Shown here: positions 324 through 8,212 of the stretch, piece by piece
Position numbering within the stretch: the stretch's first letter is position 1
Layout: every line of letters starts with the position of its first letter
NCBI GenBank assembly: GCA_024232855.1
Contig: JAAEPH010000234.1
Location: 1 to 40,317, forward strand
Length of the DNA stretch: 40,317 nucleotides
Origin: Gammaproteobacteria bacterium
GTDB taxonomy: Bacteria; Pseudomonadota; Gammaproteobacteria; GCA-001735895
Direction of reading: 5' to 3'
The notes under the pieces: model-generated
The model's input: the letters and a program-made list of their open reading frames with translations, nothing else
Database searches by the model: none
What the model was told of the DNA's origin: nothing
Program-made: the position numbers and the translations under genes

Positions 324-408
324 TTTCATGGGGGAATACATCGCTGGTTTGAATTCAACGGGGCTATGAGTAAACTTGCGCTTTCCCGAATCGTTCAGGA
401 TCAATCTT

Positions 409-1842
409 GTGGCCTCCCCAGCAGTTTCAGCGGTAAAAGACGCCAGCGGCGAAGAAATCGCAGCCGTGGAGCAACTGATCGAGCGCGCGCGTAACGCGAT
501 GCGGCAATTCGCCGGCGCCGACCAGGCGCGCGTCGATGAAACCGTGACCGCGGTCGCCTGGTCGCTGTACAAACCGGAGAACGCGCGGAAACTTGCGCAG
601 CAGGCGGTCGCCGACACCGGTATCGGCAATGTCGTCGACAAGATCATCAAGAATCAGCGCAAAACCTTCGGTACCCTGCGCGACCTGATGCGCGTGCGTA
701 CCGTCGGCGTCATCGAACCCGATTTGGGTAACGGTATGGTGCGTTACGGCAAGCCGGTCGGCGTGGTCGCCGCGATTACGCCCTCGACCAACCCCGCCGC
801 GACCCCGGTGAACAAGACCATGATGGCGCTGAAGGGCGCCAATGCCATCGTCATCGCGCCATCGCCGGCGGGCTGGAGCAGCACCAGTGCGACGGTCGAG
901 CTGGTGCGCGCCGCGCTCGCGAAAACAGGCGCCCCCGAAGACCTGGTACAAATCCTGCCGCAACCGGTGTCGCGCAATATGACGCGGTTGTTGATGGAAC
1001 AGGCCGACCTGATCGTCGCCACCGGTTCGCAGAATAACGTGCGTGCCGCCTACAGCAGCGGCACCCCGGCGATCGGCGTTGGCGCCGGCAACGTGCCGGT
1101 CATCATCGACAGTAGCGCGGACCTCGCCGATGCCGCGCAGAAGATCTGCGCCTCCAAGACCTTCGATAATTCGACTTCCTGCTCGTCGGAAAACTCGCTC
1201 GTTATTCTCGACGATGTCTACGAGGGAGCCATCGGCGCGCTCGAAGCTGCCGGCGCCTGGCGCTGCAGCACGCAGGAAAAAGCCCTGATCGCGGACAAGC
1301 TGTGGGTCAACGGTAATCTCAACCGCGAGTTGATCGCGAGGGATGCCGACGTGTTTGCCGCCGGCGTCGGTCTCGATGAAGCCGCGGGACAGGCGCGCTT
1401 TTTCCTCGTCGAAGAGAGTTTTGATGCGGCCTCGAAGTTCACCGATGAAAAATTATCGCTGGTGCTGACGGTTTACCGCGCGCGCGATTTCGACCACGCG
1501 GTGGCGTTGGTGACGGACATCTTGAAGGTGCAGGGCAGGGGGCATTCCTGCGGCATTCATACCGCGGATGCTTCGCATCCGGTGCGCCTTGCCGAGGAAA
1601 TCGACGTGGTGCGCGTGCTCGTCAACCAGGCGCATACCTTCGGTAACGGCGGCAGCTTCAACAATGCCCTCAATTTCACGCTGAGCATGGGTTGCGGCAC
1701 CTGGGGCGGTAACAGCATCAGCGAAAACCTGAACTACCGGCATTTCATCAACATTACCCACCTCGTCAACGCCGTTGCCGAAGACAGGCCTTCCGAGGAA
1801 GAATTGTTCGGCGCCTATTTCGCCCGCTACGGAAAAGATTAG
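409..1842 (+). CDS. sauS: Acylating aldehyde dehydrogenase, sulfoacetaldehyde dehydrogenase-like (SauS)
   Basis: A CoA-acylating aldehyde dehydrogenase of about 477 aa. The nucleophile Cys lies in NSTSCSSENS (about Cys258 from this start), and the nucleotide-binding part includes AAITPSTNPAATPVNK, as in acetaldehyde- and sulfoacetaldehyde-CoA dehydrogenases. SauS of sulfoacetate degraders reduces sulfoacetyl-CoA to sulfoacetaldehyde with NADPH in the cytoplasm. The call leans on the partner: an acyl-CoA ligase follows after one base, the sauS-sauT order known from Cupriavidus. The track starts at TTG 376, but GTG 409 has AGGA eight bases upstream and trims an unlikely N-terminus, so I prefer it. 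An acetaldehyde/alcohol-type or other acyl-CoA reductase is possible. No sulfoacetaldehyde acetyltransferase or sulfoacetate transporter gene is seen here, so the substrate is inferred. Confidence 0.75.
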   Translation: MASPAVSAVKDASGEEIAAVEQLIERARNAMRQFAGADQARVDETVTAVAWSLYKPENARKLAQQAVADTGIGNVVDKIIKNQRKTFGTLRDLMRVRTVGVIEPDLGNGMVRYGKPVGVVAAITPSTNPAATPVNKTMMALKGANAIVIAPSPAGWSSTSATVELVRAALAKTGAPEDLVQILPQPVSRNMTRLLMEQADLIVATGSQNNVRAAYSSGTPAIGVGAGNVPVIIDSSADLADAAQKICASKTFDNSTSCSSENSLVILDDVYEGAIGALEAAGAWRCSTQEKALIADKLWVNGNLNRELIARDADVFAAGVGLDEAAGQARFFLVEESFDAASKFTDEKLSLVLTVYRARDFDHAVALVTDILKVQGRGHSCGIHTADASHPVRLAEEIDVVRVLVNQAHTFGNGGSFNNALNFTLSMGCGTWGGNSISENLNYRHFINITHLVNAVAEDRPSEEELFGAYFARYGKD

Positions 1843-1843
1843 C

Positions 1844-3385
1844 ATGGAGACAGTGCGCGCCTGCATCGAGCAGCATGCGGGGGCAACTCCCGAACGCCCC
1901 TTTCTGATTGCGCCCGAGAGCGGGCAAACGCTCAGTTTTATCCAGCTGAAGGATGCCGTCGATGACCTCGGCGGCCGACTCGATCAACTCGGTCTTGCAC
2001 AGGGCGCGAAAGTCGCCTTCCTGTTGAACAATGGTTACTGGACGCTGCGCCTGTTCCTCGGTGTCATGGCGAACAATCGCATCATCGTGCCGCTCAACGC
2101 GGTTGCGGGCTCGGTGCAACTGGTACACGTGCTCGATCACTCGGATTCCGAGGTCGTCTTCGTCGCTCCCGAGTATCGCGACAAGCTCGCTGAAGTCATG
2201 GCGCGGATAAAATGCCCGATTCGCGTTGTCGAAGTTACCGATGACAAGGGTCCCGACTGGCCTGCCGCCGGCGGCAGCGTCACCAGCGTAGCCGCTCCAA
2301 CGTCGCGGGACACGGCCCTGCTGCTCTATACCTCGGGTTCGACCGGCCTGCCGAAGGGTGCGATGATCAGCCATCGCGCGGTCGTCAGCGGCGGGCGTAA
2401 CGTGGTCGAAGGTCACCGCTTGACAGCCGATGACCGCGCCCTTTGCGTATTGCCGGTGTACCACATCAACGGAGCCATGGTAACCGTATCGGCGCCCCTC
2501 TACAGCGGTGGTAGCGTGGTTATGCCGAAACGTTTCAGCGCTACCGATTACTGGCGGCTGGTTGCCGAGAATCACTGCACCTGGAGCAGTATCGTGCCGA
2601 CGATCATCAAGTATCTGCTCGATCGCGCCGACCGCGAACCTTACCGGTTCGGCAATGATCAACGCCTCGCGGCCTTCCGCTTTGCGCGTTCGGCGTCGGC
2701 GCCGCTGGCGGCGGTGACGCTCGAGCAATGGGAGCAGGTATTCAGGTTACCGATGATCGAGACCCTGGGGTTGACCGAAACCGCCGGCACCGTGGCGAGC
2801 AATCCGCTGCCGCCTGCGCCGCGTAAACCGGGCTCGGTCGGATTGCCTTACGGCAATGAAATTATGATCGTCGATGAGCAGGACATGGAATGCGCGCCGC
2901 AACAGGTCGGCGAGTTGATCATTCGCGGCGGCAACCTGCTCGACTTTTACTACAAGAACCCGGAAGCCACCGAGGCGTCGATTCGCGACGGTTGGTTTTA
3001 TACCGGTGACCTCGGTAAAAAAGACGGGGATGGTTATATTTTTATCACCGGGCGTTCCAAGGAGTTGATCATTCGCGGCGGTGAAAACATCGCGCCGCGC
3101 GAAATCGACGATGTGCTGTACAGGCACGAGGCGATTCTGGAAGCTGCCGCGGTCGGTGTCGACGATGAAAACTATGGCCAGGAAGTGGTCGCCTGCGTGG
3201 TCCTGCGCGACGGTTACGAATGCAGCCAGGATGAACTCAAGGTCTTTTGTGAAAGCGGCGTCGGGCGTTACAAGGCGCCGAAGAGCATTTATTTCTTTGA
3301 TGATTTACCGAAGGGTCCTTCCGGGAAAATCCTGCGCCTGAGTTTACCCGCGTTGATAGCGAAGTTGCTCGCCAAAAACTCGTAG
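1844..3385 (+). CDS. sauT: AMP-forming acyl-CoA ligase, sulfoacetate-CoA ligase-like (SauT)
   Basis: An ANL-superfamily enzyme of 513 aa. It has the phosphate loop YTSGSTGLPKG (about residues 162-172), the adenylate motif in GWFYTGDLGKKD, the hinge-containing GRSKELIIRGGENIAPREI, and a C-terminal lysine in PKGPSGKILR. It would activate a carboxylate with ATP and CoA. Directly behind the SauS-like reductase it fits sulfoacetate-CoA ligase, making the substrate of the upstream enzyme. The start chosen is ATG 1844, one base after the upstream stop; the track start at 1775 lies inside sauS. The gene ends five bases before the convergent nnrS stop, with a 14-base perfect palindrome CCAGGCTAGCCTGG at 3386-3399. 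Substrate is inferred from pairing; a medium-chain or aromatic acid ligase cannot be excluded. Confidence 0.75.
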   Translation: METVRACIEQHAGATPERPFLIAPESGQTLSFIQLKDAVDDLGGRLDQLGLAQGAKVAFLLNNGYWTLRLFLGVMANNRIIVPLNAVAGSVQLVHVLDHSDSEVVFVAPEYRDKLAEVMARIKCPIRVVEVTDDKGPDWPAAGGSVTSVAAPTSRDTALLLYTSGSTGLPKGAMISHRAVVSGGRNVVEGHRLTADDRALCVLPVYHINGAMVTVSAPLYSGGSVVMPKRFSATDYWRLVAENHCTWSSIVPTIIKYLLDRADREPYRFGNDQRLAAFRFARSASAPLAAVTLEQWEQVFRLPMIETLGLTETAGTVASNPLPPAPRKPGSVGLPYGNEIMIVDEQDMECAPQQVGELIIRGGNLLDFYYKNPEATEASIRDGWFYTGDLGKKDGDGYIFITGRSKELIIRGGENIAPREIDDVLYRHEAILEAAAVGVDDENYGQEVVACVVLRDGYECSQDELKVFCESGVGRYKAPKSIYFFDDLPKGPSGKILRLSLPALIAKLLAKNS

Positions 3386-3390
3386 CCAGG

Positions 3391-4593
3391 CTAGCCTGGG
3401 CGGCCATCTACTCGAGGCAGGATCAGGATGCGCGCGTAGACGAGCACGAATAGCATAAACGCCAGGGTCCAGAAAACGCCGGCGAGCACGATCCACAGGC
3501 TGTAACGTTGTGCATCGAACAGCGGCAGGATAACCCGCGTCACCGCCGCCAGGTTGATCAACACAAAGGCAGCGCTCAAGGGCCAGCCAACCACGAGTTC
3601 CCGGCCCGTGTGCCCAAGCGACACGCGCGCCATCATGCCGAGTGTCATGCCGCCAATAGTACCGAGCGTAAACGCGTGCAGATACAATAACGGATTGATT
3701 TGACCGCTGATCCCCAGCGCATGTAGCAGCAGTCCGATCACCAGCCAGGCGTAACTCAGGTGCAGTATCCACAGTAACGGCACGCGCCAGATGGCAGTCT
3801 GGTACCAGCCGTAGAGGCGGATGGCGTGCATCAACGCGGCAAACCCCGCGAGCACGGCAATCGCGATCGGCGTCACTGCCGCCAGGTCCAGTATCCCCAG
3901 CAGTAGCAGTGAAACGATTGCCAGGATTTCAACCGCTTTCCATTGCCGCGAGGCTCCCCGATTGAGACCGCCGTTGGTGAAAAACGGAATCACGCGGCCC
4001 CCCAGAATGACCACGAGCAGTACCGCCAGGTAACTGGCGAGCTTCAGGCCCAGGCGTGCGCTCGATGACTCGAAGCCGAGTGGTTGCAGGTGCACCATGA
4101 GGTTCGCGCCGGCAAGTGCCGCCAGCACCAACAGAAACACCAGCTGCTGATTTTGGCGGCTGCGCAGTAGCGGTAGCGCGATTGTGATCGCCAGCACCGG
4201 CAGAAATAACAGATCGACGCCGGCGATCAGCCAGGGTGCGAGGATGCCGTCGAAAAACGGCAACACTCTACCGGCCAGCCATAGCAGGGCGAGGCTGGCC
4301 AGCGCCTTGCCACTCGGGGTCGGCAGGCCGGTCCAGTTTTGCACCGCGGTCAGCAGGAATCCGGCGATGACGGCGACGTTGTAACCGAATAGCATTTCAT
4401 GGCCGTGCCAGATCATCGGGTCGTAGTAGGTGAACGCGGGTCCGGCGCTCGTGTAGCCGTAGACCCATAGCGGCACCAGCAGCACGGCAGCGATGCCCGC
4501 GAGCAGGAAGAAGGGTCTGAAGCCAAGCGCAAACAGCGCGAAACGGGATGCGGGATTCGCGTCGGGGTCTTCGATGTTGAGCGTGGTGTTCAT
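3391..4593 (-). CDS. nnrS: NnrS family haem-copper membrane protein
   Basis: A roughly 400-aa polytopic membrane protein with about twelve hydrophobic segments. The N-terminal FALFALGFRPFFLLAG and the His-rich MIWHGHEMLFGYNVAVIAGF are typical of NnrS. NnrS proteins bind haem and copper, are induced with the NO/denitrification regulon and protect against nitrosative stress; the molecular activity is not settled. The track start at 4707 adds a non-hydrophobic lead, so ATG 4593 (MNTTLNIEDPDAN) is preferred, although its Shine-Dalgarno is weak. A degenerate FNR-type half-site pair lies 88 bases upstream (4681-4694). The divergent gene shares the intergenic region with a perfect FNR box. No denitrification reductase is in the window. 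Confidence 0.9.
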   Translation of the reverse strand: MNTTLNIEDPDANPASRFALFALGFRPFFLLAGIAAVLLVPLWVYGYTSAGPAFTYYDPMIWHGHEMLFGYNVAVIAGFLLTAVQNWTGLPTPSGKALASLALLWLAGRVLPFFDGILAPWLIAGVDLLFLPVLAITIALPLLRSRQNQQLVFLLVLAALAGANLMVHLQPLGFESSSARLGLKLASYLAVLLVVILGGRVIPFFTNGGLNRGASRQWKAVEILAIVSLLLLGILDLAAVTPIAIAVLAGFAALMHAIRLYGWYQTAIWRVPLLWILHLSYAWLVIGLLLHALGISGQINPLLYLHAFTLGTIGGMTLGMMARVSLGHTGRELVVGWPLSAAFVLINLAAVTRVILPLFDAQRYSLWIVLAGVFWTLAFMLFVLVYARILILPRVDGRPG

Positions 4594-4680
4594 GCTGGTT
4601 GTGCCTGTCGCAATCCAAGCGAATATCGGAGGAACACTCCGGGGTTGCGGGTAGTCTGTGCAAAACCGACAAAGCCTGCC

Positions 4681-4694
4681 TTGAGAGAAGTCAA
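4681..4694 (-). promoter_or_regulatory. Candidate FNR/DNR-type site upstream of nnrS
   Basis: TTGAGAGAAGTCAA keeps the TTGA-N6-TCAA core of FNR/NNR/DNR boxes but lacks the inner T/A pair. It is centred about 94 bases before the nnrS start. A site at -41.5 would put the start of transcription near 4646; the -10 there (AGACTA-like) is poor. Moderate to low confidence on its own, supported by the known control of nnrS by NO-sensing FNR-family regulators. Confidence 0.45.
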
Positions 4695-4844
4695 ATCTGG
4701 CCCGCAAATCTCCCCAGCTTCGATCATGCTGATTCCCGGTAACCCCCTGGTTAGCATGTCTTAACTTGACCAGGCTCCTGCATCGGGATTTTTGTGCCCG
4801 ATCGTTTGCCGCAATCCTTCCGCCGGCCGCGACTTCGATCTCAA

Positions 4845-4858
4845 TTGATATCCATCAA
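4845..4858 (+). promoter_or_regulatory. Perfect FNR/ANR/DNR box
   Basis: TTGATATCCATCAA is a perfect match to TTGAT-N4-ATCAA. Its centre (4851.5) lies 41.5 bases before a predicted transcription start at 4893, which follows a perfect TATAAT at 4882-4887. This is the classic class II activator geometry and points at the gene starting at 4958. It is also 252 bases upstream of nnrS. Apart from this box, the weaker site at 4681 and the -10, I see nothing else clear in the 364-base gap 4594-4957. Confidence 0.8.
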
Positions 4859-4881
4859 GGGGTGTCAGGGTTGAGCTGAGA

Positions 4882-4887
4882 TATAAT
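4882..4887 (+). promoter_or_regulatory. Consensus -10 element downstream of the FNR box
   Basis: TATAAT is a perfect -10 hexamer with no recognisable -35 (the FNR box occupies that place), as expected for an activator-dependent promoter. The predicted start near 4893 leaves a 65-base leader before the GTG at 4958. Confidence 0.65.
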
Positions 4888-4957
4888 TTAACTAATGTCT
4901 TGTATGCAGTGTTGAAAATACGGCACAGTACGCACTCCCAAATATAGCCAGGTTATC

Positions 4958-6370
4958 GTGAACAAAAATATCAGTAGTCGCACAACGCTCGAAAAGGCGT
5001 TGCGTATCAATCTCGATGAAAAAAAGTACGGCACTATCGTCGAGATTGGTGCGGGCCAGGAAGTCGCGCGCCAGTTTTTCAAAACCGGCGCCGCGGCCGG
5101 CACCATCGCCAAGACCATGTCGGCCTACGACATGAAGTTCTCGGATGCGATCTATGGCGTGCAGGAAGATGGGCGTTATGTCAGCAAGATGCGCGTTTGC
5201 TCAATGCTGGAAAAGGAGTTCGGCCTTATTCTCGATCGGGTGGGTAAATCCCGTTCCAGGATCTCGCGCTATTTCTCGTACGCCGCGACCGTTGCCGCGA
5301 AGAGTTACAAGGTGAACAATGAGTGCCATGCCTGGTGCGGCATACGGGTGCAGGAATACCCGGGCGCCGAGCCTTCTGAAATCGTTCTGCATATCCGCCT
5401 GCGCGATGACAATGCCGAGAGGCAACAGCAGGCGCTGGGTGTTCTCGGTGTCAACCTGATTTACGGGGCCTATTATTACTTTGAAGATGCTAAAACGATC
5501 ATCGACTCGCTGACGGATAACCTCGAACCGGATCGTATCGAAATCGATTCAATCGAATTTCACGGACCCTATTTCGAGGAAATCGATAACCGCGCCATCA
5601 ATCTGCACCTGATTCGCAGCTGGAAGTCCCGCGCCATCATGTTTCGGCCGGATGGCTCGGTCGTGATTCCCGCGGACATGTTGTACAAGAAAAATGTACT
5701 TACCATCCGCGGATCTTTCAGGCCGGTTACCCGCCTCAACGTCGATATGATAGAGCAGGGTCTGAAATGCTTTACCGAGACCGATGGTGTAACCGCTGAA
5801 AACAGCGTCGCGCTCGCGGAAATTTCGCTCAACGACCCGCAAGGTAATGATTTGATGGTGTCCGAGGAAGATTTGATCGCGAGCGTGCGTCTGCTCAATA
5901 CACTGGGTTACAGCGTGATGATCTCTGATCATACGCGCTATTTCTCAATGCGCGCCTATTTCCGGCAGTTCACCAAGTTGCAGATCGGCATTGTCGTCGG
6001 CATCAGCAACATCAGGCAGATTTTCGATGAAAGCAGTTACCGCGGAGTCGAAGGCGGGATACTGGAAGGCTTCGGCAAGTTGTTTCCCGATCATACGCGC
6101 TTGCTTGTCTACCCGGAAATCGATCAGGTCGGAGAATACGTCGATTACACCAACCTGTTGGTGCCGCAAAACCTGCGCTTCCTCTACCGGCATCTGCTGG
6201 AAAATCATTTCATCTTTGGCATCGAGTCGAGCGATCACAAACTGTTCAAGATTTTCTCGCGCAATGTCCTCAAGCAGTTACCAAACGGTCGCGGGGAATG
6301 GGAGCAGAACCTGCCGCCCGGCGTCGCCGAAGAGATCATCGAAAACCGCTTTTTCGGCTACCGCGACTGA
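4958..6370 (+). CDS. Conserved protein of unknown function, under an FNR-type promoter
   Basis: A soluble 470-aa protein with no signal peptide or membrane segment. I recall similar proteins in marine gammaproteobacteria carrying vague or conflicting names, but I recognise no characterised family. Visible features are an N-terminal glycine motif EIGAGQEVAR (residues 29-38), a conserved-looking stretch ALGVLGVNLIYGAYYYFED, and a second half with many acidic and aromatic residues. EIGAG resembles motif I of methyltransferases, but the rest of that fold is not evident. The start is GTG 4958 with AGG five bases upstream. It is monocistronic: a hairpin repeat follows the stop. The perfect FNR-type box and -10 upstream suggest induction by low oxygen or NO, and its divergent neighbour is nnrS. 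Function unknown. Confidence 0.85.
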   Translation: MNKNISSRTTLEKALRINLDEKKYGTIVEIGAGQEVARQFFKTGAAAGTIAKTMSAYDMKFSDAIYGVQEDGRYVSKMRVCSMLEKEFGLILDRVGKSRSRISRYFSYAATVAAKSYKVNNECHAWCGIRVQEYPGAEPSEIVLHIRLRDDNAERQQQALGVLGVNLIYGAYYYFEDAKTIIDSLTDNLEPDRIEIDSIEFHGPYFEEIDNRAINLHLIRSWKSRAIMFRPDGSVVIPADMLYKKNVLTIRGSFRPVTRLNVDMIEQGLKCFTETDGVTAENSVALAEISLNDPQGNDLMVSEEDLIASVRLLNTLGYSVMISDHTRYFSMRAYFRQFTKLQIGIVVGISNIRQIFDESSYRGVEGGILEGFGKLFPDHTRLLVYPEIDQVGEYVDYTNLLVPQNLRFLYRHLLENHFIFGIESSDHKLFKIFSRNVLKQLPNGRGEWEQNLPPGVAEEIIENRFFGYRD

Positions 6371-6551: not shown

Positions 6552-6968
6552 TCAACTACGCGTGATAGTCACCAGGCCCAGTTCAGGCTGCACCACGAGC
6601 TGATCGCCGGTCCGGATTAATCGGGTTACGTCGCCGTCCCCGAAGCGATCGCACATCGCCATGTCGGCGAGCGCCGCTCCCTGCGCCAGGATCGGATTGA
6701 CGTTGTTGAAGAGGATTGCCTTTGGCGCGACGCCGCGCGATTTCATTTCATGCAGCATCCACGCCGAGGCGACACCGCCCTTGGCGGTATTGAACACCAT
6801 AATCTTGTCGACGTAGCTCTGACCGGCGAGCTTGTGCTGTGGGCGCGAGAAAATGCCGGCGATGCGGTCGAGGTCGTAGCGCGCCGAAAAGTTGTCATCG
6901 GTGACCAGGGCTTCACCGCTGACCACGGGTCCGACCCCAACGTGGCACTCAAGCTCAATTGTTTCCAT
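6552..6968 (-). CDS. AcnX small (swivel, DUF126) subunit
   Basis: A 138-aa swivelling-domain protein of the aconitase X superfamily. Diagnostic stretches are GPVVSGEALVTDDNFS, KGGVASAWMLHEM, and NVNPILAQGAALADM. In split AcnX enzymes this domain closes over the active site of the large subunit. The track ORF starts at 7136, but ATG 6968 overlaps the large-subunit stop (TAATG), which indicates translational coupling and gives the family's normal N-terminus (METIELECHVGVGP). The enzyme would dehydrate a hydroxy acid; known members act on cis-3-hydroxy-L-proline or mevalonate 5-phosphate. The substrate here is not known. Confidence 0.85.
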   Translation of the reverse strand: METIELECHVGVGPVVSGEALVTDDNFSARYDLDRIAGIFSRPQHKLAGQSYVDKIMVFNTAKGGVASAWMLHEMKSRGVAPKAILFNNVNPILAQGAALADMAMCDRFGDGDVTRLIRTGDQLVVQPELGLVTITRS

Positions 6969-8212
6969 TACACAATCTCTCCGGCGATCGCCGAGGCGAC
7001 GCAGTTTTCCATATTCGACAAGCTCGGTTCGTAGCCGTAGCCGCCGATGATGTTGGCCAGCTTGACCGAATTGGTCATGAGTCGTTTCCAGCCGTTGGCT
7101 TCGGCCATTTCGCGCGCGTAGCTCTGGTAGAAGCACATGCCCTCGAGCACCAGGGCGCCGGATGCCTCGATGCGCTCGACCAACCCCAGGCGCCGGGCAT
7201 CCGCCGCGACCACAGGGCTGGTTACCGCGAGCAGGCTGGTGTCCTCGTGCAGTTTCCTGTCATCGAGTAATTCCGCCAGTGATTGCATTTCCAGCAGCGA
7301 TAACTGCGGCGCCGAAAACACCACCACGTCGACTTTTTCACCCTTGCCGCCGTAGCGCGCGAAAAAATTCTCCAGGTCGGCGCCGGCGATGGTTTCGGCG
7401 TCGAGTAGGGCGGGGTCGCAAACGGCTTCCAGGGTCGCCGCTTCCGGGGTGACGCCGACGACGTGGAACAAGGGTACCGAACCGAAGCTCGCCATCGCCG
7501 CGCCCATGTGTTTCATTTCATCGGAGCCGGGTTGCGACTCGATGCCCTCGAGTACCGGGACTTCCCAGTAAGAGCCCGCGCGGGCGCCGATGATTCCGCC
7601 GAGCGCGCCCCAGTCGGACAGGTGTTGCGGTTTGAAATCGACGCGAAAGCGCCGCGTCGCCATTCGGTTGTGATCGAGGTGCAATCCGTAGCGCGGCGTG
7701 CGGCCCGTGAGCCCGGCCGCGAGCGACGATGGACCACCTTCGAAGTTGGAATAGGCGCCGAGCACGCTGTTGCAGTAAATCACCACGCCGGTATCGCCGA
7801 AAGCGAGGTGCTCGCCGCGCACCGGCGGCATGATGGTCTGGTAATTGATGCAGGTGTTGGTCATGAGAATGCCCATGGCTTCGAAGGCATCGATGGCGCG
7901 TTGTTCAAGTGACGCCATCCATTCGGTTTGCCTGAGGCGTTTGTAATGGCAAAAGTCGATGCCGCGTGGGTCGGTGATCATGGGGATACGCACCTGGCGC
8001 TCGTCTCGCGGGCGCGCCGCGATATCCTCGAGGAATTCGACCCCGGCCTCACCGAGTGACTCGGTGTCGGCCATGATGTGCGCCTGCGTTACCGGGACCA
8101 GGTCGGGTGCGTCGAAAAAGCGCCCGACGCGTATCATGTGCTCGATCGCCCAGCGGCGAGGTTCCCCGAGCTCGCCGTTTAGCATGGCCTTTTCTTCTTG
8201 GTTCAGTTTCAT
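6968..8212 (-). CDS. AcnX large (catalytic, DUF521) subunit
   Basis: A 414-aa catalytic subunit of an aconitase X-type dehydratase. The family core is visible in the Cys-bearing TNTCINYQTIMPPVRGEH and VIYCNSVLGAYSNFEGGPSS followed by GRTPRYGLHLDHNR; a further Cys lies in LEGMCFYQSYA near the C-terminus. Cysteines of this kind hold an Fe-S cluster in characterised relatives. Large and small subunits are separate genes here, overlapping by one base, and the gene itself overlaps an upstream 72-aa ORF by ATGA, so three cistrons are coupled. No proline racemase, hydroxyproline or mevalonate genes are adjacent, so no substrate can be assigned. Confidence 0.9.
   Translation of the reverse strand: MKLNQEEKAMLNGELGEPRRWAIEHMIRVGRFFDAPDLVPVTQAHIMADTESLGEAGVEFLEDIAARPRDERQVRIPMITDPRGIDFCHYKRLRQTEWMASLEQRAIDAFEAMGILMTNTCINYQTIMPPVRGEHLAFGDTGVVIYCNSVLGAYSNFEGGPSSLAAGLTGRTPRYGLHLDHNRMATRRFRVDFKPQHLSDWGALGGIIGARAGSYWEVPVLEGIESQPGSDEMKHMGAAMASFGSVPLFHVVGVTPEAATLEAVCDPALLDAETIAGADLENFFARYGGKGEKVDVVVFSAPQLSLLEMQSLAELLDDRKLHEDTSLLAVTSPVVAADARRLGLVERIEASGALVLEGMCFYQSYAREMAEANGWKRLMTNSVKLANIIGGYGYEPSLSNMENCVASAIAGEIV

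Follow-up and report, generated by a model that had tools for sequence, protein, structure and literature searches.

A predicted FNR/DNR class II promoter kept before one gene of an uncharacterised protein family in a group of uncultured bacteria

In class II FNR promoters, represented by the Escherichia coli FNR regulon and by Ideonella cld (PMC7349173), a TTGAT-N4-ATCAA box is centred near −41.5 relative to the transcription start, a −10 element follows at a set distance, the −35 is poor, and the regulator is a four-cysteine FNR whose ETxSR recognition helix reads TTGAT. The Pseudomonas DNR regulon (PMC1274295) uses the identical consensus, and the two kinds of site are indistinguishable (PMC1274295; PMC2908626). 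The locus analysed here lies in a 40,317-nucleotide stretch of gammaproteobacterial DNA (hereafter, the window) and has all of the class II features just listed, including a four-cysteine FNR with an ETxSR helix, but its target is another gene and its activity is predicted from sequence. It also resembles the DNR system, given that a DNR-like gene and a cd1-type nitrite-reductase gene share one contig and that napA is present in the genome; the target, however, is no known denitrification gene, and its adjacency to nnrS is private to one genome. The features concerned are the following.

4845–4858, + strand: FNR/DNR box TTGATATCCATCAA with perfect palindromic half-sites, conserved in orthologous promoters
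4882–4887, + strand: −10 hexamer TATAAT, 23 nt after the box (spacing of 22–24 nt in 10 genus genomes)
4893–4894, + strand: predicted transcription start, from the geometry of box and −10 hexamer
4958–6370, + strand: 470-aa gene with a GTG start; predicted CinA/PncC-like N-terminal and NadD/NMNAT-like C-terminal domains (open reading frame, predicted fold and profile)
3391–4593, − strand: nnrS (PF05940, 1.8e-110), divergent neighbour, private to the locus of the source genome and outside the conserved unit

The initial annotation of this DNA had described a perfect FNR/DNR box followed by TATAAT, and both elements hold: the consensus TTGATNNNNATCAA is matched at 10 of 10 positions, the exact box occurs once in the window against 0.03 expected by chance, and the composite of box and TATAAT occurs once against 0.00. 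The box centre (4851.5) falls at −41.5 for a predicted start at 4893 and at −42.5 for the A at 4894, both class II positions, with a predicted untranslated region of about 64 nt. The further statement that the box is centred 41.5 bases before a predicted start is thus right for the predicted transcription start and wrong for the start codon, the GTG being 106 nt from the box centre and 70 bp from TATAAT; this GTG is common to the close relatives L026, L028, L029, L097 and L100. No sigma-70 −35 hexamer was found at the promoter of the 470-aa gene, as is expected of an activator-dependent promoter.

Orthologues were collected by related-locus and genome searches, and the 300 bp before each start were read. 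The layout of box, 22–24 nt and TATAAT precedes the orthologue in 10 of the 22 distinct genomes of the genus (mostly draft metagenome-assembled genomes, which brings some risk for single bases and contig ends). When up to one mismatch is tolerated overall, the composite was observed in 9/22, compared with 0.0 expected from dinucleotide shuffles of the same upstream regions. Across the ten promoters, identity reaches 90% in the half-sites and falls to 41% in the box centre, 28% in the spacer and 30% in the flanks; the gap between half-sites on the one side and spacer and flanks on the other indicates that selection acts on the box itself and not on its surroundings. A search of 31 genus genomes (approximately 110 Mb) for the perfect composite (box-N22..24-TATAAT) gave five occurrences, each just before an orthologue, and none for the reversed control. 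At four loci (L028, L029, L097 and L102) the upstream genes are entirely unlike those of the window and the layout is identical.

These numbers bear directly on the possibility that a chance palindrome happens to sit beside a constitutive TATAAT promoter. Box-like sites with one mismatch are indeed expected at 0.95 per window, and TATAAT is kept in the box-less relatives L030, L031 and L101; the statistics of the footprint, and the fact that across the genus the composite is unique to this gene, nevertheless refute this reading in effect, and we give it almost no credence. Judged from the aligned promoters, the box at 4845–4858 is a footprint and not a product of chance, that is, a predicted docking site conserved before a single gene among these uncultured bacteria.

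In the mechanism that we propose, an FNR-family activator would bind the box at 4845–4858, some 41.5–42.5 bp upstream of the transcription start, cover the place of the missing −35 and recruit RNA polymerase to TATAAT in the class II manner, so that the 470-aa gene would be switched on by falling oxygen (if FNR acts) or by NO (if a DNR-like regulator acts). The site, its geometry and conservation, the regulator genes and the predicted fold are direct results of the analysis; binding, activation, signal and the biochemical role of the 470-aa protein are what we infer here. Taken together, the footprint, the matching regulators and the boxes before hemN and ccoN (see below) strongly support an FNR/DNR-activated class II promoter, and the 470-aa gene very probably has a working promoter of this kind. 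For the box-bearing lineage, the predicted response of the gene to low oxygen or NO has good support; which of the two is the signal cannot be read from the sequence of the site.

The source genome (4.15 Mb, 97% complete) holds 16 distinct perfect boxes, whereas the reversed control pattern is absent. Perfect boxes precede hemN (TIGR00538, 600 bits) and ccoN (TIGR00780, 768 bits), both classic oxygen-type FNR targets. Among its CRP/FNR-type proteins, L016 is similar to E. coli FNR (189 bits with the NCBIfam Fnr model, which is below the cut-off) and has a CxxCx5C motif, a fourth cysteine and the recognition helix ETVSR. In L017 the cysteines are present, but the helix is CTVSR instead of ETxSR, and this protein may not read the site at 4845–4858. 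L020, which we read as DNR-like from its sequence, has an ETFSR helix and lies on the same contig as a cytochrome cd1 nitrite-reductase gene; its sole NCBIfam match is FtrB, below the cut-off. The recognition helix is right in L016 as well as in L020, so one of them may act, or the two together. We regard FNR as the likelier regulator, by some distance short of certainty, since perfect boxes of the same kind stand before classic oxygen-type targets.

The competing view, in which an NO-responsive DNR-like regulator is the main user of the box and the 470-aa gene belongs to denitrification or the NO response, draws on the position and helix of L020, on the napA and cd1-type nitrite-reductase genes of the genome (nosZ-like matches there being fragments below cut-off only) and on gene neighbours. 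In the window, nnrS adjoins the 470-aa gene, and in the closest relative napC, napB and napA are convergent just downstream of the orthologue (L026:6673–10252), a single case that gives a hint and no evidence of linkage. Each of these adjacencies, however, is seen in one genome, boxes elsewhere in the genome stand before the oxygen-type FNR targets hemN and ccoN, and the site itself cannot discriminate between regulators. We therefore consider a main role for the DNR-like protein unlikely, though worth keeping in mind, and continue with FNR as the favoured activator.

The nnrS gene requires separate treatment, given that the initial annotation tied the 470-aa gene to it. Where relatives have the same flanking genes (sauS, the AMP-ligase gene and acnX), a small predicted lipoprotein takes the place of nnrS, and nnrS was not found adjoining any other orthologue locus inspected. 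Compared with all other NnrS proteins in 41 family genomes, that of the window reaches no more than 45% identity, and the source genome has a second nnrS elsewhere (at C473). The adjacency thus looks like a recent, private event and is unfit as functional evidence; a link by synteny was rejected, and the proposed tie has to be given up. Could the box nevertheless serve nnrS, or both divergent genes? The palindrome is symmetric and could serve that direction, and nnrS is a known target of DNR, NnrR or NorR in other proteobacteria (PMC1274295). Against this, some 250 bp separate the box from the nnrS ATG, no −10 stands at the proper distance (22–24 nt) on that side, the box is conserved at loci without nnrS, and the only closer nnrS site (4681–4694) has two mismatches, which is chance level. 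A role of the box for nnrS is accordingly very improbable, and the 470-aa gene is the target that we retain.

The neighbourhood of the 470-aa gene includes, at 376–3385 of the window, an acylating sulfoacetaldehyde dehydrogenase (SauS, 749 bits) adjoining an AMP-binding CoA ligase, and on the other side an AcnX protein (6968–8212) with a small conserved open reading frame beside it (6552–6968). Both pairs are conserved around the 470-aa gene in several relatives, and together they look like a catabolic block of the sulfonate/hydroxyproline type. Among the neighbours inspected in other taxa, no conserved operon around the orthologues was found.

The reach of the predicted regulation is limited. 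The layout is missing in 12 of the 22 genus genomes, so that even close relatives do not all share the regulation, and the layout was not found before the examined orthologues of Paraglaciecola, Glaciecola, Alteromonas, Shewanella, Granulosicoccaceae and others. Its absence outside one 16-member subclade of the protein tree, to which the box is restricted, marks the regulation as a trait of this lineage, not of the family as a whole. Conservation of the box before orthologues thus holds within this subclade and not family-wide, and the earlier suggestion that the box ties the whole uncharacterised family to anaerobic physiology goes too far; with box-less orthologues both within the genus and in other taxa, the box as a family-wide feature was rejected. 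The tree needs four changes in all, and the history of the box is best read as a gain followed by losses. In L030, L031 and L101 the box is gone, TATAAT remains, and a gnd-like gene (6-phosphogluconate dehydrogenase-like, identified by eye; about 3411–4919) lies directly upstream, 60 bp from the orthologue; insertion of gnd apparently displaced the box, which would be an example of regulon loss. In Paraglaciecola, a co-directional hemN-like gene follows the orthologue (L038:6598–7995), and the region upstream of that orthologue yielded no FNR box.

The 470-aa protein itself has no match in Pfam, NCBIfam or PHROGs, and a PDB sequence search gave nothing useful. An AlphaFold2 model built from 46 aligned orthologues (mean pLDDT 90.8, pTM 0.88) was compared with the PDB by Foldseek, which returned the nicotinate-nucleotide adenylyltransferase NadD/NMNAT (TIGR00482; 2h2a, 2.3e-6) and the CinA C-terminal domain (2a9s, 1.5e-5), both at probability 1.00. 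The predicted NadD-like domain spans approximately residues 249–466 and aligns to 1–198 of NadD/NMNAT in a global profile alignment (E 1.6e-5, with controls near zero); fold, profile similarity and the GxFxPxT loop are shared. The (H/T)xGH motif of NadD, however, appears as T258-x-L260-N261, in which T258 is invariant and the second His of HxGH is Asn in 33/46 sequences and His in 5/46, and the SSxxIR-like motif is also altered in the family.

The N-terminal domain shares a predicted fold with the CinA C-terminal domain, that is, the PncC NMN deamidase (PF02464), and is placed there by its motifs: VEIGAG corresponds to AESCTGG, AYDMKFS to TYSNAAK, and the ESCTGG-loop Glu and the Tyr are 28 residues apart in both. 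As profile comparison alone failed to detect the relation (no significant alignment against 25 CinA sequences), this assignment is the less secure of the two; it is based on Foldseek and motif spacing. The PncC catalytic dyad is Ser31/Lys63 in AtCinA (PMC5384747); the corresponding positions, placed by eye from motif and equal spacing, are Ile30 and Ser62 in 46/46 sequences, so that the catalytic Ser and Lys are both replaced. Separate canonical nadD and pncC genes are present in the source genome. The best viral fold match in BFVD is a 360-aa phage protein annotated as cytidyltransferase-like (A0A6J5RR79, 6e-13), which covers the greater part of the model, so phages, too, may have proteins of this two-domain layout.

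The 470-aa gene appears to encode an altered relative of enzymes that make and recycle NAD, most simply read as an NAD-related protein of two domains whose chemistry has changed, or as a ligand sensor; it may be an NAD-related enzyme or a sensor produced when oxygen is low. More tentatively, and with less than even odds, the family may be a widespread PncC-like/NadD-like fusion in which neither standard chemistry survives. It would then act as a sensor of pyridine nucleotides or as a novel NAD-related enzyme, and would have been recruited once into the FNR/DNR regulon of the genus, with the strongest class II FNR promoter of these genomes. Our literature search found no paper linking FNR, NadD and CinA.

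The promoter type described here is well known, but it offers a physiological condition under which an uncharacterised, widely distributed protein family can be studied. A regulon gain can be placed on the tree, followed by apparent losses, and promoter and predicted fold together suggest pyridine-nucleotide metabolism as an oxygen- or NO-regulated function in the box-bearing bacteria. If the tentative scenario is true, recruitment of the fusion protein would place NAD(P)/NMN homeostasis under the influence of oxygen or NO.
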